From the NCBI GenBank assembly GCA_014799465.1, contig JAAVHZ010000068.1:1-64000 (forward strand): 64,000 bases of DNA, written 5' to 3'. Every line of letters begins with the position of its first letter. Within the stretch, counting starts at the first letter, position 1. Shown here one piece after another: positions 5,792 to 62,529 of this stretch. Origin of the DNA: Lachnospiraceae bacterium (GTDB lineage: Bacteria > Bacillota > Clostridia > Lachnospirales > Lachnospiraceae). Both the position numbers and the translations under genes were made by a program. The notes below the pieces were generated by a model. That model did not search any database and was not told the origin of the DNA. It saw only the letters and a program-made list of their open reading frames with translations.

Positions 5792-6517
5792 ATGGAAACA
5801 TATCAAGAATTTTTAGACAGAATTAATTTATTTGAAAAAAAGGAAATAAATTATGGAAACAAATATTTTAAGGGAAATCCATCGCTTTCACAAAAAATTA
5901 ATAAAGATAATACATTTAGAAATTTTTACGGAGATACTATAGTTTTTGCATTAGATGATATTATTAAAGAAAAATTAGGCGAATATGTGGAACTATTATA
6001 TCGGTCTGCACCGGAATGCTTTTGTGAAAGATTGGTTCCCAATACGTTTCATGTAACTTTACACGATCTCAGTAATTCACCGGATTTGCGAGATGTGGCA
6101 GAAGAGTTATTTGATAATGAACTTAAGGTAATAGAAAAAATAGGAGAAATACAAAAACACGAAAAATCAAAAATAAAAATGAAAAGTAAATACATATTTA
6201 ATATGGTTGACATCAGTTTGGTTTTGGGGTTGTATCCTGCTGATGAGGATGAATATCGCAGATTAATGGAATTATATTTCATTTTTGATAATGTAAAGAA
6301 ATTAAATTATCCTTTTACGCCACATATTACGTTGGCATATTATAATATTAATGGATTTGATTTACAGACTGCCAGAATTTTAGAAGATGCGGTCAATCAA
6401 CTTAATGATAATGAAATTGAAATAGAACTAAATGTTAATAATTTATACTATCAAAAATTTAAAAGTATGAATGATTATATTGATATAATTAATTTGGGCA
6501 TCATAAACAAATCTTAA
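5792..6517 (+). CDS. 2H phosphoesterase superfamily-like protein (2'-5' RNA ligase/CPDase fold)
   Basis: Two HxT motifs: NTFHVTLHDLSN and FTPHITLAYYNIN. Confidence 0.72.
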   Translation: METYQEFLDRINLFEKKEINYGNKYFKGNPSLSQKINKDNTFRNFYGDTIVFALDDIIKEKLGEYVELLYRSAPECFCERLVPNTFHVTLHDLSNSPDLRDVAEELFDNELKVIEKIGEIQKHEKSKIKMKSKYIFNMVDISLVLGLYPADEDEYRRLMELYFIFDNVKKLNYPFTPHITLAYYNINGFDLQTARILEDAVNQLNDNEIEIELNVNNLYYQKFKSMNDYIDIINLGIINKS

Positions 6518-6596
6518 AAAAGCAATATAAATGTTTAGGTATTAGTAATAGAAATTTTTATATGTTGTTTCCATATATTTATATAGGAGGATAACT

Positions 6597-7286
6597 GTGA
6601 CAAAAATATTAATCGCAGAAGATGATAAAGAAATAAACCGTTTATTAAGTGAATTTTTGAAAAATCAAGGATATGAAGTAATTTCGGTTTTTAATGGATT
6701 AGAGGCAAATTCTATTATACATGGACTGGAAGATGTTTCATTAATATTGTTAGATTTGATGCTGCCGTATAAAAGCGGTGACATGGTACTTGCAGAATTA
6801 CGGGAATCTTCAGATATACCGGTTATTATAATATCGGCGAAGGATGCAGTCAGGACTAAAATAGAGCTTATACATATGGGAGCAGATGATTATATAACAA
6901 AGCCATTTGATTTGGATGAGATTTCCGTTAGGATAGAGGCTGTACTTAGAAGAGTAGGCAGGGATTTAGAAGATAAGCAGAATCGTATTTTGAAATATAA
7001 GGATTTAACCATGGACTGTGAAAGTAAAACGGTGTCGGTAAACGGAAATATTCTCGTGCTTACAGGAAAAGAATATGCAATATTAAATCTTATGCTAAAA
7101 AATAAGTCAAAACTATTTTCAAAAGCAAATCTTTTCGAAAGTGTCTGGAGTGAACCTTACTATAATGAAGACAATACGCTGAAAGTACATATGAGTAATA
7201 TTCGCAGTAAGATAAAACAATATGCCCCTGATGATGAATATATAGAAACGGTCTGGGGGATGGGGTATAGGTTGAAAAAGCAGTAA
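6597..7286 (+). CDS. OmpR-family response regulator
   Basis: MTKILIAEDDKEINRLLSEFL...LILLDLMLP...GADDYITKPFD; winged-helix C-terminus. Confidence 0.95.
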   Translation: MTKILIAEDDKEINRLLSEFLKNQGYEVISVFNGLEANSIIHGLEDVSLILLDLMLPYKSGDMVLAELRESSDIPVIIISAKDAVRTKIELIHMGADDYITKPFDLDEISVRIEAVLRRVGRDLEDKQNRILKYKDLTMDCESKTVSVNGNILVLTGKEYAILNLMLKNKSKLFSKANLFESVWSEPYYNEDNTLKVHMSNIRSKIKQYAPDDEYIETVWGMGYRLKKQ

Positions 7287-7346
7287 TAACAAGCTGGAAA
7301 CGTATGGCGATAAAATGTTGAGATAGAGAAGGGAAATTAGAATTTT

Positions 7347-7952
7347 ATGCAAGGAATTGATTTGCTTGATAGTAGTAAATTGTTTGAATTTTTATTTGAA
7401 ATAACTGATTATTTTGTTGTGGTTTTTGATGATGAAGAATTTACTTTGAGTGAGAAAGAAGAAGCTGATGAGGAATATAAGAAAAATATTATGAATGGTA
7501 ACGAATGTGAAGAATTCAAGAGAATATTATTGGATAAGTTTTACTGTGGTGCAGAAGGAGAAGATAATTATAATGAAGAATATCAATTAGCGGTTAAATC
7601 ATATAATGATAGTTTATCAAAAAGACTGGTTAATGAGCAAAAGTTGAACCGACATATTGAATCAATAAATAGATATTATTCTATTCTAAATAGAAATGTT
7701 ACAAATAAAACTTTTTTTAGTGAGAGCTGGTATAGTTATGTCTGCTTTTTATTAAAAATTGATGATAAACTAAAGAAAGAATTAAGAAAAAAGGAAAGTA
7801 TTAATTTTGTCAGTTTAAGTGGATTTGAAAAATATATAAATGAATACTACTTTTTAAAAGGTGACAGAATAGTTTTTGCTGTTTCTGTAAATGAAGATAA
7901 ATACTTAGACCTAACAGATGATGAGAAAAAACATATAATGGAAAAGTATTAA
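7347..7952 (+). CDS. Hypothetical protein
   Basis: 201-aa ORF in coding orientation between response regulator and ABC genes. Confidence 0.6.
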   Translation: MQGIDLLDSSKLFEFLFEITDYFVVVFDDEEFTLSEKEEADEEYKKNIMNGNECEEFKRILLDKFYCGAEGEDNYNEEYQLAVKSYNDSLSKRLVNEQKLNRHIESINRYYSILNRNVTNKTFFSESWYSYVCFLLKIDDKLKKELRKKESINFVSLSGFEKYINEYYFLKGDRIVFAVSVNEDKYLDLTDDEKKHIMEKY

Positions 7953-44492: not shown

Positions 44493-46034
44493 TTGAAAAG
44501 GGAAATGATAATTGTTCTTGACTTTGGCGGTCAGTACAATCAATTAATTGCAAGACGCGTAAGAGAATGTAACGTATACTGCGAAGTTCACCCATATACT
44601 ATGAGCCTTGATAAGATTAGGGAAATGAATCCTAAAGGAATTATATTTACAGGTGGTCCCAACAGTGTGTATGGCGATGATGCACCAAGATGTTCGAAGG
44701 AAATATTTGATATGGGAATCCCTATTCTGGGAATATGCTATGGTTCACAGCTTATGGCATACCTGCTGGGAGGAAGCGTTACTTCCGCTCCTGTCAGCGA
44801 GTATGGTAAAACAGAGGTAAATGTGGAAAATTCATCAAAGTTGTTTACAAATGTGAGCGACACAACTATATGCTGGATGAGTCATACTGACTATATAGAG
44901 AAAGCACCTGAAGGCTTTACTATTACCGCCCACACTTCTGTTTGTCCTGTAGCGGGAATGGAGTGTGCCGAGAGAAACCTGTATGCAGTACAGTTCCATC
45001 CGGAGGTAATGCATACACCAGAGGGCATGAAAATGCTATCAGGATTCGTGTATGATGTTTGTAAATGCTCAGGAGATTGGAAAATGGATTCCTTTGTAGA
45101 TACAACCATTAATGAAATTCGTCACAAAGTCGGCAATGGCAAGGTTTTGTGTGCACTTTCAGGTGGTGTGGATTCATCGGTAGCAGCAGTACTTCTGGCA
45201 AGAGCAGTCGGAAAACAGCTTACATGTGTATTTGTAGACCATGGTCTTCTTCGTAAAAACGAAGGTGATGAGGTGGAGGCCGTATTTGGACCGGATGGTC
45301 ACTATGACCTTAATTTTATCCGTGTAAATGCACAGGAGAGGTTTTACAATAAATTAAAAGGTATAGAAGAACCTGAAGAGAAACGTAAAATTATTGGTGA
45401 GGAGTTCATTAGGGTATTTGAAGAGGAAGCCAAAAAGATAGGTGCCGTAGATTATCTCGTTCAAGGTACAATATATCCTGATGTAATAGAGAGTGGACTT
45501 GGCAAGTCAGACGTAATCAAGTCTCATCATAATGTAGGTGGTCTGCCTGAGTGTGTTGATTTTAAGGAAATTATAGAACCGTTAAGACTTCTGTTTAAAG
45601 ATGAGGTCCGCAAGGCAGGACTTGAGCTTGGTATCCCAGATTATCTTGTATTCCGTCAGCCTTTCCCAGGTCCGGGACTTGGCATAAGAATTATTGGGGA
45701 AGTAACTAAAGACAAGGTGCGTATTGTGCAGGATGCAGATGCCATCTACCGCGAAGAGATAGCAAAAGCCGGAGTTGATAAAGGTCTTGGACAGTATTTT
45801 GCTGCTCTTACTAATATGCGTTCAGTGGGTGTAATGGGTGATGAAAGAACTTATGATTATGCAATTGCATTGAGGGCAGTGTGTACAAGTGATTTTATGA
45901 CTGCGGAGGCAGCACAGATTCCGTGGGAAGTTCTGCAGGTGGTGATGAATAGGATAATTAATGAGGTTAAAGGGGTTAATCGGGTAATGTATGATTTGAC
46001 TAGTAAGCCGCCGGGGACGATTGAGTTCGAATAA
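44493..46034 (+). CDS. guaA: GMP synthase (glutamine-hydrolysing)
   Basis: GATase [31 protein letters not shown]-terminus [17 protein letters not shown]. Confidence 0.98.
46023..46033 (+). other. Putative att core copy 1 (guaA 3' end): GAGTTCGAATA
   Basis: Identical 11-mer recurs at 47228 and 54028. Confidence 0.75.
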
Positions 46035-46151
46035 TACAAGGGTGTATAGTTTATTATATATGGCAGGTGGTCTATATGAACGCCTACTGTATTTGATAAA
46101 TATTATATATACATTTTGAGATAAGTATTGTTGCCAAATAGGAGAGGTGTA

Positions 46152-47099
46152 ATGAGTAAAAGGTATAAGATTATTTTGGTTGGAATTATTGTTGTCTTTT
46201 TTGCTTGTTTGATATATAGTTTTATTGATAGAGATTTTGATTTTATTACATATATAGCTGGACTATCCAGTTTCTTTGTTGCATTACTTACAGTTGTATA
46301 TGTATACACGACTAATGAACAATTGAAAATGATGAATAAACAATTAAAACAAATGGAAAAGGAACAAAAGCAACAACGACAGCCATTTCCACATATGAAT
46401 AAGGTTGAGTTAGAAATCGAGAAACCTAGGTTTTTCTATACACCACCAACAGATGAGTATTCATGTCAATCAAGGTATCGCATAATAGCAAATATCGATA
46501 ACCTTACAAATGAGCCGGCAGTGTTATTAGATGTGGTTGCAACAATTAATATACCACAAGATAACAATATAATTGTGCTTGATACAACTACAGAACGAAT
46601 CAATGTATTGTCAAAAGAATATAATGATAAGATAGAAGTCAGTTTCCTTTTTTCAGGAGATGAAAAAGCAAAATTATTTGAGGCATTAAGAAACAAAAAG
46701 GCAAGTGAATTCCCAAGATTAAATATTTGCATTTATTATAGGAACCTTGTGGGAGGTTGTTTTAAACAAAAGAATTCATTTTATATTTTGCCAGAAGACC
46801 TAGATGTAATAAATAATTGGCATATAATAGTGAATTCGTTTGAGGTAGAATATTATGAAAAATTAAAAAAATTAAGAAACTTGGAAAAAGGTGATAAATT
46901 GCGAGAAATTCTTTTTGATGAAATTAAGCAAGATATTATAAAAAGATTAGAAGATGACTCAACAATTAAACTTGAAACTATGGCAATAAGTATAGCTTTT
47001 TCTATAGATTTTTTAGCAGAAAAAGAATATGTAAACGAAATTGACAAAATTAGTTATTATAGTCGATTTATTGGGGTTGAACCTGAATGCAAAGAGTAG
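46152..47099 (+). CDS. Hypothetical membrane protein, sole cargo of first att-bounded segment
   Basis: Two N-terminal TM helices, coiled coil (NEQLKMMNKQLKQMEKEQKQQ), then soluble domain. Confidence 0.75.
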   Translation: MSKRYKIILVGIIVVFFACLIYSFIDRDFDFITYIAGLSSFFVALLTVVYVYTTNEQLKMMNKQLKQMEKEQKQQRQPFPHMNKVELEIEKPRFFYTPPTDEYSCQSRYRIIANIDNLTNEPAVLLDVVATINIPQDNNIIVLDTTTERINVLSKEYNDKIEVSFLFSGDEKAKLFEALRNKKASEFPRLNICIYYRNLVGGCFKQKNSFYILPEDLDVINNWHIIVNSFEVEYYEKLKKLRNLEKGDKLREILFDEIKQDIIKRLEDDSTIKLETMAISIAFSIDFLAEKEYVNEIDKISYYSRFIGVEPECKE

Positions 47100-47110
47100 A
47101 ATTACATGGC

Positions 47111-47239
47111 AACATTTTGGCAACAGAAAATCAGTAAGCCAGAATAAATGATGTAATTGAAGTAAAAAGCAGTGTGTATTTGCATAAAACTTAAACAAAT
47201 ATAGTTAAGAGCAACAAAGGACACTTCGAGTTCGAATAG
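47111..47239 (+). repeat. Element right-end repeat copy 1, with att core copy 2 (47228..47238)
   Basis: Gapless alignment to 53911..54039, about 18 mismatches in 129 by hand count. Confidence 0.85.
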
Positions 47240-47246
47240 TAAACAG

Positions 47247-47290
47247 AGAGCCGGGAAGCCGCACATAAACAGCGGACTTTCCGGCTTTTA
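47247..47290. terminator. GC-rich hairpin terminator after att copy 2
   Basis: agccgggaagccgc-acataaaca-gcggactttccggctttt. Confidence 0.7.
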
Positions 47291-47335
47291 GCTTGTGGCG
47301 AGATACCTTTTTGATACCTATTTTTTCAAATAAAC

Positions 47336-47700
47336 TTATTTAGTATATTTCCTAAATAAAGTTGCAGTAAATAATGTCATGATTATAGAACCGCATAATA
47401 GTTCAACAGACATGGCTATTTGTGTAATGCCGGATGTGGGAGCAGTGCTGCCTTGTCCCACTGTTAATAAGTGTAATAAAGCTGTAATATAGACTTTGGA
47501 GCCAATCAAATATTGTCTGACGATTAATAGCAAAAGTACAATTTTTAAAATAGTTGATTGAACAAGTAGAGGAATTAGGAGTAAATCCAGTAAACATATA
47601 AATAAAGCTGAATAGTAGTATTAAGAAGATTATACTTATAAACGCTTTGAAAGGTTTTTCTCCATATCCTATTATTGCTTCTAATAAATAATAAGGTAAA
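47336..47700 (-). pseudogene. Frameshifted two-TM potassium-channel-like gene
   Basis: Minus-strand frames read IGYGEKPFKAFISIIF...LQSLYYSFITL then, shifted, TVGQGSTAPTSGITQIAMSVELLCGSIIMTLFTATLFRK (selectivity-filter-like); 5' limit uncertain. Confidence 0.5.
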
Positions 47701-48052
47701 GCAGATATGACTTTTTTGCTTCTAGTTTCTGCTTTCTTGCGTTGATAATAAAAATTAGCTATATGATTATCATCTTCTCGTATATGATTGGAGATTGATA
47801 GGATATGACGGATATGGAAAAGAAAGTCATGGTGCGGCTGTGTGCAAAGATTCTGACAAAAACAGAATTGTATGATGCAGATATGGAAGTACTGAACTTG
47901 ATTGACTGGATATGTGTGTAGGAGCAGATTAAGACAAACAACAATGCAATTCGCAATCTGACTGGAGAATATAAGAAGATAGAGCCAGATTGCCGGGAGG
48001 GAGTGAGGCGCAGTTGGAGCGGATGAAAGAACTCTGTAAAGAGCGGAATAAT

Positions 48053-48190
48053 CTGTATGAGAAACGGAATAACTTGAAAGGGCAGAAACAAAAGATTGAG
48101 AAGTCGTTGGTGCGATAAAAAATGTAGAGTGTGGGTGATATGCCCTATATTTTTGTGGTAAATGTAAAGAGAAAGTAGTATAATAAAATC
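48053..48190 (+). repeat. Diverged repeat copy A upstream of acetyltransferase
   Basis: ctgtatgagaa...aagattgagaagtcgtt...tatatttttgtggtaaatg; matches 53513..53645. Confidence 0.75.
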
Positions 48191-48285
48191 TGAAAATTAT
48201 GGTTGATGGAGGTAAAAAGTGAAACGCTGCATTGTAGTAACCGATATAGTCGCATAATAACTATCAGAACATGTAGGATTTTAAA

Positions 48286-48915
48286 ATGACTATATCGGAG
48301 AACAAAATTTATCCCCGGACAGGTGATACCCAAACAGTTTATTTAAAAAATGTGATTACCAATGACAGAATTAAAATTGGTGATTATACAATTTACAACG
48401 ATTTTGTACATGATCCACGAAAATTTGAAAAGAATAATGTATTGTATCATTACCCAGTTAATGGAGATCAGTTACAAATCGGTAAGTTCTGTTCTATTGC
48501 TTGTGGAGCAAGGTTTCTGTTTACCAGTGCAAATCATGCAATGTCTTCACTTTCAACATATCCATTTCCAATATTTTTTGAGGAATGGGAATTGGACGTA
48601 AAAGAGATTACAAGCGCATGGGACAACAAAGGCGATATTGTAATTGGTAATGATGTTTGGATTGGCTTTGAAGCGGTTATTTTATCTGGTGTAACGATTG
48701 GCGATGGAGCGGTTATTGGTACACGAGCAGTTGTTACAAAAGATGTACCGCCTTATACGATCGTTGGAGGTGTTCCTGCAAAACCGATACGAAAACGGTT
48801 TTCGGACGATGTGATTTCTGAATTATTGAAACTTCAATGGTGGAACTGGTCTGAAAACAGGATTAAGAAAAACATTGTGGCGATTCAATCAGGTCGAATT
48901 GAGAATTTGGAATAA
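48286..48915 (+). CDS. CatB/Vat-type xenobiotic O-acetyltransferase (left-handed beta helix)
   Basis: [31 protein letters not shown]...[57 protein letters not shown]. Confidence 0.88.
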
Positions 48916-49048
48916 TTGGTAACAGTTGTGTGGAAATACAGTTTTCTTCAACTTCTTGTCTGTAAGAAAGACGGAATAATTTTCCTTAGTAATGATTTGA
49001 ACACGGTGCTAGCACCATGTAAGTTAATACAGATAAGGGAAAGGTAGT

Positions 49049-49090
49049 AATGTGGCAGTTCGCAGTATCAAGCGGATTGCCACATTTTTA
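49049..49090 (+). terminator. Hairpin terminator
   Basis: aatgtggcagttcgc...gcggattgccacattttt. Confidence 0.75.
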
Positions 49091-49123
49091 TGGAAAAATA
49101 GGCGGTTATGTGGTAATATATAG

Positions 49124-49235
49124 GAACAAAGATAAAAACACAACTCAAGGCAATCTTGCAGAACTGGTAGGTAGTCCAGTCGCACCATTTTGGTGTAAGT
49201 AACCCTCCCTCCTTAGGGTCGTCTGTTCTTTGTTC
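49124..49235 (+). ncRNA. yjdF-motif (azaaromatic) riboswitch
   Basis: aaacacaactcaaggcaa...ctggtaggtagtccagtcgcaccattttggtgtaagtaaccctccctcc core; 9-bp closing stem GAACAAAGA/TCTTTGTTC; directly upstream of YjdF ORF. Confidence 0.85.
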
Positions 49236-49263
49236 ATTACAATTATTTTAAGGAGGAATTGTC

Positions 49264-49680
49264 ATGGACAAAGTTTCGGGAAAGCTGACAGTATTTTTTG
49301 AAGAGTCCTTTTGGGTGGGAGTGTTTGAACGTATATCGGATGGAAAGTTATCTGTGTGTAAGGTTACGTTTGGCGCAGAACCAAAAGACTATGAGGTTTA
49401 TGATTTTGTTCTGAAAAATTATTATCGGTTACTATTTTGTCCAGCTGTGGCATCTGATGTAAAAGAAACTGGTCGCAATCCTAAACGGGTACAGCGCGAA
49501 GTGCGGAAACAAGTACAGAGTACAGGGATAGGTACAAAATCGCAACAGGCTTTGAAATTATAGCAGGAGCAGTTGAAAACTGAACGCAGGATTGTGAGCC
49601 GGGAACAGCGGGAAACGGAGAAACAGCGGCAGTTTGAACTGAAACAGCAGAAAAAGAAGGAGAAGCATAGGGGCAGGTAA
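49264..49680 (+). pseudogene. yjdF: YjdF family protein interrupted by in-frame TAG near the C-terminus
   Basis: MDKVSGKLTVFFEESFWVGVFERISDGKLSVCKVTFGAEPKDYEVYDFVLKNYYRLLF...; TAG at 49561..49563, same frame continues QEQLKTERRIVSREQRETEKQRQFELKQQKKKEKHRGR*. Confidence 0.8.
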
Positions 49681-49730
49681 TATTGCCCCAATTGCACTGA
49701 ATTTGTAATTGGAAAGTGAGGAAAGTGGAA

Positions 49731-49940
49731 ATGCCATATATTATGGTCGAAAGTGGAGCATTATCAGACGAGTAAAAAGAGCTGCTAATTAAGCGATTAA
49801 AAGAAGTGTCTTTTGAGATTATGAAAGTACCACAGGAGTTTTTTGTTACCACAATTAAAGAGGTATCTGATAAAAATTTTGGTATTGGTGGCAAAACGAT
49901 TGATAAGGTTAAAGAAGAATATATAAAGAATCATCAATAG
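49731..49940 (+). pseudogene. 4-oxalocrotonate tautomerase-like gene with in-frame TAA
   Basis: MPYIMVESGALSDE*KELLIKRLKEVSFEIMKVPQEFFVTTIKEVSDKNFGIGGKTIDKVKEEYIKNHQ; stop at 49773..49775. Confidence 0.75.
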
Positions 49941-50059
49941 TTTTTCGCAAATATGTGAATAAAAGTTTAGGGTAGTGGATAATTCTTTCCGTGGTTATGT
50001 TGTATAGGCTATAATAAAAAGATAAAAAGAAGTTTTGTTATTGGAGGAGGAATATAATA

Positions 50060-50857
50060 TTGGATAATCTAAAAAAATTGGAATTAGAATATGAAGGAAT
50101 AAGGAAAACTATTTTAGATTATACTTCGGAGGGTAATATAGTTAATTTTTTAGATGGACTAAAAAAACAAATTGACAAAAAAAACATAGAAGCAATAGAC
50201 TATTATATTAATGAAATATGTGTTTGGTATGAGAAGAATATAAATCAAATATATGAGAATGAGTTTGTTGTGGATCTGTCAGCACATGATAGAAATAAAA
50301 AGATATTAGAAGAAATTCAAACCGGATTTCAAGCGAAGAGAGGAATAGGAAAAGAGGAAAAGAAAATGTATTCAAAAATTTTTTTGAGTCATAATTCATA
50401 TGATAAAAAATACGGTGATGCTATAAGAAATCTTTTAATGAGTTTAGGGTTAAGAAAAGAACAATTGATATATACTTCACATCCTTTACATAAGATTCCG
50501 ACAGGTAATAACATCTTTGAGTATTTAAAACAAAATATACAAAAAGATATTTATGTTATATTTCTTTGGTCGAATGCGTACTTAAAAAGTGCAGCATGCT
50601 TAAATGAAATGGGAGCAGCATGGATAATAGAAAGTGATTATATAAATATGTATACTCCAGATTTTGATTTTAATAACCCACAATATCATAATTGTGCGGT
50701 CGATATAAGGAAAATGGGTGTAGTGTTAAAGAATGATGAACATTGTAAAATGGGAATGGTGGAATTGAAACAGAAACTTATACAAAATTTGGGATTAGCA
50801 ATAGATGAGCAGGAATGGATATATAGCTTAGATGAATTTATGAAAAACATTGTATAG
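50060..50857 (+). CDS. TIR-domain protein with N-terminal helical domain
   Basis: SKIFLSHNSYDKKYGDAIRNLL...IPTGNNIFEYLKQNIQKDIYVIFLWSNAYLKSAACLNEMGAAWI; conserved E in LNEMGAAW; TTG start after ggaggagg. Confidence 0.85.
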   Translation: MDNLKKLELEYEGIRKTILDYTSEGNIVNFLDGLKKQIDKKNIEAIDYYINEICVWYEKNINQIYENEFVVDLSAHDRNKKILEEIQTGFQAKRGIGKEEKKMYSKIFLSHNSYDKKYGDAIRNLLMSLGLRKEQLIYTSHPLHKIPTGNNIFEYLKQNIQKDIYVIFLWSNAYLKSAACLNEMGAAWIIESDYINMYTPDFDFNNPQYHNCAVDIRKMGVVLKNDEHCKMGMVELKQKLIQNLGLAIDEQEWIYSLDEFMKNIV

Positions 50858-50870
50858 AGGGAGAACAGTT

Positions 50871-51353
50871 ATGGAACAGAGAGAAATTCAAGCATTAGAG
50901 GAGTTGGCAAAGAACTTATCTTTATTATCTACAAAAGGAACGGTTACGGCTACTGAAGCCAAAATAAAAGCTATTCAGGTAGAAAAGGACATTGAAAAAA
51001 TTAAAAATCAGTATGATGAGATTGTTAACGTATTAATAGCAGAACGTGCAGAGGCGATTCGTATTGCGCAGGTTTATAAAAACGAAATGGAACGTTATGT
51101 AATTAGTGATAGCGATATTGAACATTTACATAATACTGTAGAATTAGTATTAGATATTATTAAAGAGATGAGCCCAAATATAGATGTAGCAATGTATCAG
51201 AAATTAAAAGAGCTGATTTGTGTTGATGTTTTAAAAGCAATTCAACTTTTAGGATTTAATTATAAGGAGGCTATTGGTGAACCATTAACACAATTATGTG
51301 CAAATGCTATATTAAATAAAACTCAAAAGGTTAGTCAAAATAGAAAGAGATAA
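50871..51353 (+). CDS. Small helical partner protein of the TIR gene
   Basis: Starts 13 bp after TIR stop (MEQREIQALEELAKNLSLLSTKGTVTATEAKI...); no family recognised. Confidence 0.7.
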   Translation: MEQREIQALEELAKNLSLLSTKGTVTATEAKIKAIQVEKDIEKIKNQYDEIVNVLIAERAEAIRIAQVYKNEMERYVISDSDIEHLHNTVELVLDIIKEMSPNIDVAMYQKLKELICVDVLKAIQLLGFNYKEAIGEPLTQLCANAILNKTQKVSQNRKR

Positions 51354-51404
51354 AGAGACTTTGTGATACCTGTTTGCTCTGAAGCTGCAAATAAGGCGTA
51401 AAAT

Positions 51405-51995
51405 ATGGATATTATTGCTAAGAAAAGCCTTAAAGGACAATCAAATGTTTATGCAATTCCATCTGACAAATTGATGGAGGTATTGGAAGAAAATACGGAT
51501 GCACTGTATATGTATCTCAATTGTCTGCCGGGTAGTATTTTTGAATACAAAAAAGCAACTGTAGAAGATATAGAAGAACTGGTAAGAACAAGGATTATTG
51601 TTCTTCGTGCCGCTAATAAATTGTCTGATGATGTAGATATGTATGTGCTGGAACAGGAATCTTTCGCATATTATAAGCGGGCATTGGAATCTGATGAACA
51701 TATCGCATACCTGGTGTACGATAATGATAAGTTTATCGGTTCAGGTGGAGTTAGTTTTTATCAGGTTATGCCAACTTATCACAATCCTACAGGTGAAAAA
51801 GCGTATATTATGAATATGTATACTGCACCGGAATATAGAAGACGGGAAACCACATTACATACATTGGATTTACTGGTAAAGGATGCGTTGGAACGGGGCG
51901 TGTCACAGATTGCGTTAGAGACAACGGATATGGGACGATCATTGTATGAGAAATATGGATTTGTAAAAATGGAAGATGAAATGGAGCTGATATAG
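51405..51995 (+). CDS. GNAT acetyltransferase
   Basis: IYKKATVEDIEELVRTR-type start; GSGGVSFYQVMP...AYIMNMYTAPEYRRRETTLHTLDLLVKDALERG...SLYEKYGFVK. Confidence 0.85.
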   Translation: MDIIAKKSLKGQSNVYAIPSDKLMEVLEENTDALYMYLNCLPGSIFEYKKATVEDIEELVRTRIIVLRAANKLSDDVDMYVLEQESFAYYKRALESDEHIAYLVYDNDKFIGSGGVSFYQVMPTYHNPTGEKAYIMNMYTAPEYRRRETTLHTLDLLVKDALERGVSQIALETTDMGRSLYEKYGFVKMEDEMELI

Positions 51996-52550
51996 TGAGT
52001 AGAAAACTGACCGATTTACAACCATGGGAATGCTTGATGAAGCGAATTGTATGGAAACAATTAGGAGACATTCGGGATAAGAAGATACTTGATTTTGGCA
52101 GTGGTATTGGGGTAACAGCAAATTATCTGGCAGAGCATAACCATGTAGTAGCCATTGAACCAGATGAAGATAGTGTTAAGAAAAGATGGGCAGACAATCA
52201 ATATACGCAAATTGTCGGAAGTACTGAAGAATTGCGTAAATTTGCAGATGGTTGTACTTTTAAATGATTTTGGGCATGCCAATAGTTTGCTTGATGGTAA
52301 TGACGGAATGGCTTCCAAGTATGGAGCGATTCGTTACTATGAGGATGTTGATATTGAAAAATGGTGTCCTGAACTTTCAATTAGGAAGGAACTTGGCATG
52401 AGAACTTTCTGGGATATGCAACAGAATCAGGATATTCATAAGGACACCGATTGGCAGGATAACATGGTGGAAATAGAAAGGCGGGTGTCTGACATAGATG
52501 TATATAAGGATATTGCGTTTTTTAATCATTTGATACTTGGGAAGAGATAG
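51995..52550 (+). pseudogene. SAM-dependent methyltransferase with internal deletion/frameshift
   Basis: ILDFGSGIGVTANYLAEHNHVVAIEPDEDSV in frame 1; VVLLNDFGHANSLLDGNDGMASKYGAIRYYEDVDIEKWCPEL in another frame; central part missing. Confidence 0.8.
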
Positions 52551-52560
52551 GAGACCTATT

Positions 52561-52617
52561 ATGACAAGAGTATATTTTGTGCGTCATGCACAATCGATGC
52601 ATAATTGGAAAGAGTAG
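52561..52617 (+). pseudogene. N-terminal fragment of histidine phosphatase family gene
   Basis: MTRVYFVRHAQSMHNWKE* (RHG-type active site) then stop. Confidence 0.7.
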
Positions 52618-52669
52618 AGTAATCCATGTAAGCAAATAATACGCTCTATCATACGCATTGCCCCTCGTT

Positions 52670-53105
52670 TGTACCGCCTCTTACGTTATTGGGGCGGAAA
52701 TAAAGCGTTTAGTTCCTGTCTTTATCACAAAATCAAAAAGAGGGTGTTTTGTATACACAAAGAACGTCCTCGCTGACAAGATAATATGCACATATGTCAA
52801 TATGCATTCCCGGTCATCAGGAAAAACAGTTTTCAGCGGAGCGGTCAGTTTCAAATCTGCAACCGCCTTATCAAGAAACTGTTCAATACCGGTTTCTGCA
52901 ACCGTACAGTTCTCCTGTGGATTTGAAATCTGTTCTTTATTTTTTGCGTCATCGTCCTTTTTTCGATTCAGGGCAATTTCACCAATAACAGAATCAAGAT
53001 GCCCGACACTTCTGCGATGGTCTTTATATGTTTTAGAATCCTTGTCCCAATATATAGTATTTTCATAAACATAAGTTTTTCCGTTTGGATTTTTGACACA
53101 AACAA
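52670..53105 (-). pseudogene. Transposase N-terminal fragment (IS1634/IS4-like)
   Basis: Minus strand reads CVKNPNGKTYVYENTIYWDKDSKTYKDHRRSVGHLDSVIGEIALNRKK...; truncated. Confidence 0.6.
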
Positions 53106-53512
53106 TTTATGAGAAATTGTTGCAAATACAGGTTGGCTACGAAATTATGATAGCAGTAAGAGTAAATTTTGTATTAAGTGGGACACTGATAATAAAGGCA
53201 GAAAGGACTGATTTTATGGCTGCAGTATTGAAAAAAGATTACCAACTAGCTTTGGACAAACAGAAAAAAGAAGTTAGAGAGCTTGTAATGGCTGGACTGG
53301 AGCAGATAAAAGAGGGAAAGACAAAAGACTTTAATACTGTGTGTGACAGATTGGAGAAGAAATACAGAGATGAGGGAATATCAAATACAAGATTTTTAAA
53401 ATAATTATGGAAAATATGCGAAATAAATGGTATGAAATAGTAGAAAATACGCCTAAAATATTAACAAATAAGTTAATTATTAGGGAGTTCGAGTGATGAA
53501 ATAGGATTTGTT

Positions 53513-53645
53513 CTGTATGAGAAGCAGAGTGACTTGAAAGAGAAGATTGAGAAGTCGTTAAAACGATAAGAAATGTGGGGCATGGCGGTTGCTGTGCCTT
53601 ATATTTTTATGGTAAATGGATAATGAAAGAGGTATAATCAAGAAA
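53513..53645 (+). repeat. Diverged repeat copy B upstream of phosphatase fragment
   Basis: ctgtatgagaagcagagtgacttgaaagagaagattgagaagtcgtt...ttatatttttatggtaaatgg; matches 48053..48190. Confidence 0.75.
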
Positions 53646-53676
53646 GTAAATTTAGATTGAACAGAAAGAGGTATTT

Positions 53677-53898
53677 ATGAAATTATTTGTTGCTCGTCAT
53701 GGTCAAACAACTTGTAATGCTCAAAATAAAGTATGTGGTATTACTGATGTAGAATTAACAGAAAAAGGAATAGAACAAGCAAAGAAATTGGCTGATATAG
53801 TACAGAATTACAATATTGATATAGTTATATCTTCACTATTAAAAAGAGCCGCAGAAACAAGTCAAATTGAATTGCGAATTTGCAGGGATTTGTTATAA
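53677..53898 (+). pseudogene. Histidine phosphatase family, C-terminally truncated at element end
   Basis: MKLFVARHGQTTCNAQNKVCGITDVELTEKGIEQAKKLADIVQNYNIDIVISSLLKRAAET; sequence then becomes the right-end repeat. Confidence 0.75.
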
Positions 53899-53910
53899 TA
53901 AATGCGTGAC

Positions 53911-54039
53911 AACATTTTGGCAACAGAAAATCAGCAAGCCATAATAAATAATGTAATTTAAGCAAAAATGGGCGTGTATTTACACAGAATTTAAACTAAT
54001 ATAGTTAAGAACAACAAAGAACACGCCGAGTTCGAATAG
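53911..54039 (+). repeat. Element right-end repeat copy 2, with att core copy 3 (54028..54038)
   Basis: Gapless alignment to 47111..47239; GGCAACA repeats at the same offset from the core. Confidence 0.85.
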
Positions 54040-62229: not shown

Positions 62230-62529
62230 ATGATGAAATTGCGAATCAATCCAGTAGTGGCAGAGGATTTAAAAACAATAAAGAACTTTATTGCGGAGGA
62301 TAATGCCAATAAAGCATTAGAAACGGTTCAGGAGATTTATAGGCAGTTTGAGAATATACAACAGTTTCCTTATATTGGTGCGGATTTGTCTAAACGTGTG
62401 AGTTTTAAGACGGATTATAAATATGTGGTGTGGAATGATTATGTTGTGTTGTATAAGGTTGCTAAAGAGGTAGTTGATATTTATCGAGTGGTGAATCGGT
62501 ATCGGGATATTACAAAGATTTTTAGTTAG
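62230..62529 (+). CDS. ParE/RelE-family toxin
   Basis: MMKLRINPVVAEDLKTIKNFIAEDNANKALETVQEIYRQFENIQQFPYIGADLSKRV...YVVWNDYVVLYKV...IYRVVNRYRDITKIF. Confidence 0.9.
   Translation: MMKLRINPVVAEDLKTIKNFIAEDNANKALETVQEIYRQFENIQQFPYIGADLSKRVSFKTDYKYVVWNDYVVLYKVAKEVVDIYRVVNRYRDITKIFS

Follow-up and report, generated by a model that had tools for sequence, protein, structure and literature searches.

The window analysed here is the whole stretch of 64,000 nucleotides from a Lachnospiraceae bacterium, and it holds an array of segments at the 3′ end of guaA with the following features.

44493..46034, plus strand: guaA (GMP synthase), an open reading frame aligned with guaA of relatives; its 3′ end is the integration target.
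46023..46033, plus strand: core copy 1, GAGTTCGAATA, the last guaA codons and the left boundary; it restores the guaA end.
46034..46151, plus strand: LE-A, the conserved left end of integrase-less cassettes, from nhmmer and covariance models.
46061..46091, plus strand: hairpin ATGGCAGGTG ... CGCCTACTGT, within LE-A.
46128..46137, minus strand: inverted arm-type site TTGTTGCCAA, which on the opposite strand reads TTGGCAACAA; the inverted TGTTGCCAAA stands at 46129-46138.
46152..47099, plus strand: cargo gene of 315 aa, with N-terminal helices/TM and then a coiled region.
47107..47238, plus strand: RE, the conserved right end, with an arm doublet at 47107-47125 and ending in the core; common to autonomous elements.
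47228..47238, plus strand: core copy 2, GAGTTCGAATA, the right boundary of the cassette.
47239..54038, plus strand: second array segment, its left end with another arm type, GATACCTTTTTGATACC, its right end of RE type; it contains an SpbK homologue.
53907..54038, plus strand: second RE copy, closing on core copy 3.
54028-54038, plus strand: core copy 3, GAGTTCGAATA, the end of the second RE copy.

The core GAGTTCGAATA occurs in three exact copies in the window, against an average of 0.01 exact forward matches after Markov shuffling of the sequence. One convincing gene and no recombinase lie between copies 1 and 2, just as the first-pass annotation had it when it described a single-gene, integrase-less cassette between att-core copies. 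It had also read direct repeats at the right end, with an inverted copy at the left, as a layout of integrase arm sites, and both are present: the doublet TGGCAACATTTTGGCAACA stands at 47107-47125 (with a second copy, differing by one mismatch, at 53907-53925; 0.07 matches expected in shuffles at up to 3 mismatches) and the inverted site falls within LE-A. The two RE copies of the window are 84–86% identical over about 131 bp each, and this extent of the repeated right end and the conserved hairpin of the left end were absent from that earlier account.

The second segment (47239-54038) appears chimeric, with GATACCTTTTTGATACC arms on the left and a right end of the TGGCAACA type. Besides the SpbK homologue (PADLOC 2.5e-114) its cargo includes a hexapeptide acetyltransferase, DUF2992 and GNAT genes, and apparent gene remnants. 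A core-like GAGTTCGAGTG is found at 53485-53495, 5′ of the second RE, and a truncated histidine-phosphatase gene lies in the interval between them; this is possibly a further decayed cassette, or chance. Elsewhere in the window, a ParE-type toxin gene (62230-62526) resembles the toxins that precede RE in locus L047; no RE was detected behind the window copy.

The cargo gene of the first segment likely starts at the ATG at 46152, which follows AGGAGAGG, and stops at 47099, a longer reading being available from an upstream TTG at 46128. It has no Pfam match above cut-off, and no function was obtained from Pfam, PADLOC, NCBIfam, PHROGs or PDB. The AlphaFold2 model of the protein has a mean pLDDT of 40.8, with values of 70–90 reached only in parts of the N-terminal helices, which is too low to bear out the novel soluble domain of the first-pass annotation. 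Homologues were sought in viral contigs, 149 other genomes of the family, 395 genomes of the order, plasmids and phages, and the one real relative, 92% identical in protein, came from locus L162, which had come to light via its RE. A weak match in another genome (G004) was confined to the N-terminal helices and was rejected as a homologue.

The L162 locus belongs to an uncultured Lachnospiraceae MAG, and window positions 46005-47235 give a gap-free alignment of 1,231 bp with it at 91.8% identity, beginning in the last guaA bases and reaching the right core, beyond which it does not continue. Upstream, guaA of the two hosts matches at 66.7% in one 321-bp patch of nucleotide sequence and at about 55% in protein. 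The cassette in L162 likewise sits exactly between guaA and a core copy, without an integrase; it is thus what the first-pass annotation proposed to look for in other genomes, and the opposite finding, homologues lying away from att-like sequence, did not turn up, the only close homologue being at a guaA core. Cassettes with HicAB, YoeB/YefM and a 284-aa membrane-coil protein recur in the same manner in different hosts with different flanks. The sequence that follows the window cassette on its right shares 91% identity with the one that follows a HicAB cassette in L088: the neighbour is the same at the two loci and the cassette differs. In the two same-genus genomes in which an empty guaA site was looked for, none was seen, one contig stopping at guaA and the other holding a different guaA element. 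At the level of sequence, the match with L162 and the recurring cassettes show what we take to be transfer among distant hosts, the cores marking the limits of what was transferred.

The right end is found widely. A 139-bp right end matches 33 of 150 genomes of the family, and a pattern scan of named genomes returned at least 119 RE stretches, mostly from Lachnospiraceae. Upstream of RE stands varied cargo unaccompanied by an integrase, such as toxin-antitoxin pairs, TIR-type and other defence-like genes, and acetyltransferases, names that were read from the sequences and are partly borne out by Pfam/PADLOC. A tree of 54 right ends (131 columns, weak support) fully intermixes those of cassettes with those of integrase-bearing elements: the labels change 18 times along it, and 17.5 times when shuffled. 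One integrase-bearing element has an RE that shares 95% identity with the window RE.

The left end LE-A begins after the core with about 30 bp, followed by a hairpin with a stem of about 10 bp, a further 35–50 bp or so, and then often TTGTTGCCA. Its covariance model finds matches in 32 of 397 genomes of the family, spread over 31 genera, and the match in the window itself (R1, G000:C68:46023-46103) has an E-value of 1.9e-8. LE-A sits after guaA or after RE: among 62 distinct copies over all loci, 14 lie directly after guaA and 23 directly after RE, and the core is present at 18 of the remaining 25 (chance 0.8% per search window). The hairpin covaries, in that both partners vary at six of its ten pairs, none of 500 shuffles reaches any of the measures used, and sliding the partners out of register destroys the signal; this is support rather than proof, as related sequences can exceed shuffles. 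Because G-U is far commoner than A-C in the stem (43 cells against 7), the hairpin is probably read as RNA in the guaA sense. Our guess is that it protects or ends the guaA transcript once guaA's own terminator is displaced. The inverted site GTTGCCA is found in 30 of the 62 copies, mostly 106–111 bp from the core (0.04 in shuffles), about half of all LE-A copies being without an exact site. LE-A has no match in Rfam, and its exact string is absent from viral contigs. The hairpin was not called by a terminator scan.

The window cassette is one member of a widespread guaA cassette family in gut Lachnospiraceae, and this family carries mainly toxin-antitoxin and anti-phage genes. An RE lies downstream of 34 LE-A copies, and the resulting units measure 0.6 to 6.1 kb, with a median of 1.2 kb; for the other 28 of 62 no RE could be recognised in the available sequence, in part because of contig ends. 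Not one of the 34 units contains a relative of the guaA integrase (int35-like), which disposes of the suspicion that an integrase had been lost in the window strain only. Likewise, a Pfam integrase search of ten LE-A genomes gave no integrase within 9 kb of LE-A among the matches listed. In 29 of 33 units the longest open reading frame points the same way as guaA, and the other four are taken as toxin-antitoxin units in which the reverse frame is a slightly longer shadow of the toxin gene. Cargo recognised by Pfam/PADLOC comprises YoeB/RelB-type (YoeB/YefM), YafQ and HicB (HicAB) genes, a DRT8 reverse transcriptase, an LmuA-like protein, an HD protein with a weak dGTPase match, DUF4062 and TPR proteins. 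By analogy with this cargo of sister cassettes, the anti-phage role raised in the first-pass annotation seems plausible for the window gene, while naming its role as anti-phage or toxin would be a guess. In one further genome (L217, G333:C7), a second guaA-like stretch with 51% identity follows an array at 6503-7568 and is itself followed by LE-A.

Candidate helper elements are found at the same site. In L035, L039 and L051 the order after guaA is a left end bearing the same doublet, an HTH gene on the opposite strand, then genes for a tyrosine integrase, a NikA/MobC-like protein, an AAA ATPase and, in L035 and L039, a relaxase, and finally cargo and RE. Pfam recognises Arm-DNA-bind_4, Phage_integrase, NikA-like and Mob_Pre in L035, whose relaxase is named MobV by NCBIfam at a score below cut-off; the NCBIfam integron-integrase score of the helper integrase is far below cut-off. 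Integrase relatives (about 67–100%) lie 4.6–12.9 kb upstream of RE in 14 of 15 loci, and the fifteenth, L099, has a partial integrase 1.4 kb from RE. In all six integrase-bearing elements having guaA in view, the left end has a direct arm doublet and differs from LE-A; helpers carry the doublet at both ends and have the core and RE, but not the left end, in common with the cassettes. The presence of the same doublet at both ends of integrase-bearing guaA elements, together with the inverted site in 30 of 62 LE-A copies, strengthens the arm-site layout first proposed for the window.

Helper and cassette stand in tandem in L089 and L216. The int35-like integrase is commoner in genomes with LE-A (17 of 32) than in the rest (122 of 365; p = 0.03), and 15 of the 32 have none at E 1e-60. 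The window genome has no close relative of the helper integrase, the best matches being 24% over 250 residues and 43% over 47, and the window cassette is for this reason probably stranded. Other arm doublets with an 11-bp period (GGTACT, GCATTTT, GGTTCT, GATGTT, GGGTAC and GATTCT) are seen at the guaA site behind a hairpin, after guaA or RE, in L035, L039, L042, L044, L051, L057, L060 and L233, suggesting that several integrase families may use one common guaA core. On one contig, a stretch of about 40 kb (L208 and L225, G263:C54 84100-123900) with no fewer than four integrase genes related to one another, an LE-A and an RE is apparently a long tandem array.

We regard it as likely that the cassettes form a non-autonomous integrative lineage that uses guaA integrases in trans or moves by accretion with a tandem integrative mobilizable element (IME). 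Each unit begins with the core and LE-A, which bears the hairpin and the inverted arm site; one or two cargo genes follow, oriented like guaA, and RE and a second core close the unit, which encodes neither recombinase nor relaxase. Its ends would most likely be recombined in trans by the tyrosine integrase of a larger IME that has the same core and RE and a putative gene set of integrase, NikA/MobC-like protein, AAA ATPase and MobV relaxase. A cassette in tandem with such an IME may leave with it as one circle and so reach other cells; the action in trans, the circular form and the route between cells are what we infer from the layout.

CIMEs are cis-mobilizable elements, decay products of ICEs or IMEs that retain attL and attR (PMC5704250), and the integrase-less ssrA islands of Dehalococcoides have been suggested to be CIMEs (PMC3146451). 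The cassette resembles them in being a single open reading frame with no integration or transfer domains, in keeping cores and arm sites at both ends and in standing in tandem with elements at the same site. One alternative is that each segment arose independently by decay of an ordinary guaA IME, through loss of the integrase and retention of the ends. Integrase-less segments of tandem arrays are usually explained in this way (PMC5704250), the cassette RE equals that of the IMEs, and the second segment of the window resembles such a remnant. Independent decay, however, predicts the left ends of the IMEs, whereas the left end of the cassettes differs from all six IME left ends seen and is LE-A over 31 genera, and intact cassettes recur in distant hosts; we hold this explanation to be unlikely. 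A single decay event long ago, whose product then spread non-autonomously, is compatible with the lineage we favour, merges with it and could be its origin.

A still weaker contender, which we think very improbable, is that the array arose by homologous recombination, with the repeated right ends and the 3′ ends of guaA as partners and no integrase acting on the cassette. The 131-bp length of RE would suffice for exchange, and the mixing of cassette and IME right ends on the tree would fit, but the left boundary in L162 has only about 20–30 bp in common, guaA beyond it being distant, and the arm sites and core are left unexplained. Such exchange may add to the shuffling; it hardly explains a first entry at guaA. 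That LE-A is merely native sequence downstream of guaA, as its position directly after guaA in 14 of 62 copies might suggest, is scarcely credible for a sequence with up to three copies per genome, also in tandem, 23 of them overall directly after RE, and present in only 32 of 397 genomes.

The non-autonomous cassette lineage at guaA can be set beside several known systems. CIMEs are described as separate decay products, while the guaA units are about 1 kb long and have one distinct left end with a putative RNA hairpin and exchangeable cargo. IMEs encode integrase and mobilization functions, and the cassette has neither. Compared with a non-autonomous element mobilized in trans, it has the core and RE in common with the autonomous element, but not the left end.

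The dif/pdif modules are small, recombinase-less, often carry toxin-antitoxin genes, are flanked by short sites and are moved in trans. They use the host XerC/D and 28-bp sites and lie mostly on plasmids. The dif/pdif modules of Acinetobacter (PMC7885321, PMC13141974) are the nearest functional analogue of the guaA cassettes. The latter differ in having an 11-bp guaA core together with arm sites for an integrase that an element encodes. Integron gene cassettes are defined by an attC site and an integron integrase platform; they have one or two genes in uniform orientation, form arrays, carry toxin-antitoxin and defence cargo and have their site at the 3′ end of the gene. The guaA units are like them in gene number, uniform orientation, arrays and type of cargo, but their target is the end of guaA, and the helper integrase contains a domain for arm binding. 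We know of no conserved hairpin end in staphylococcal pseudo-SCC elements. Those without ccr are likewise recombinase-less segments that att copies flank at a housekeeping gene's end, but they are much larger and associated with serine recombinases (PMC3637587, PMC3900703). The guaA IMEs or genomic islands ATE-1 and GIsul2 are inserted at the guaA 3′ end by tyrosine integrases (PMC5704250, PMC9376610); they encode their own integrase, and the guaA cassettes none. Nothing was found on guaA together with Lachnospiraceae in a literature search that left out most subscription papers, and the novelty of the guaA cassette family is provisional for that reason.

A wider picture, offered tentatively as somewhat short of an even chance, is that one-gene cassettes for defence or toxin-antitoxin functions form a pool with standard ends, for which guaA is the fixed chromosomal landing site, integron-like without an integron. 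Integrases of IMEs that visit the site would shuffle these cassettes among gut Lachnospiraceae, and the LE-A RNA hairpin would adapt each of them to its position directly behind an essential gene. Anti-phage and toxin-antitoxin genes turn over fast, and the route by which single genes travel is often unclear. If they are mobilized in trans, these cassettes would be among the smallest integrative units carrying such genes and would parasitise mobilizable elements of common gut bacteria, and their standard ends would offer a simple route to new defence candidates, including the orphan gene of the window.
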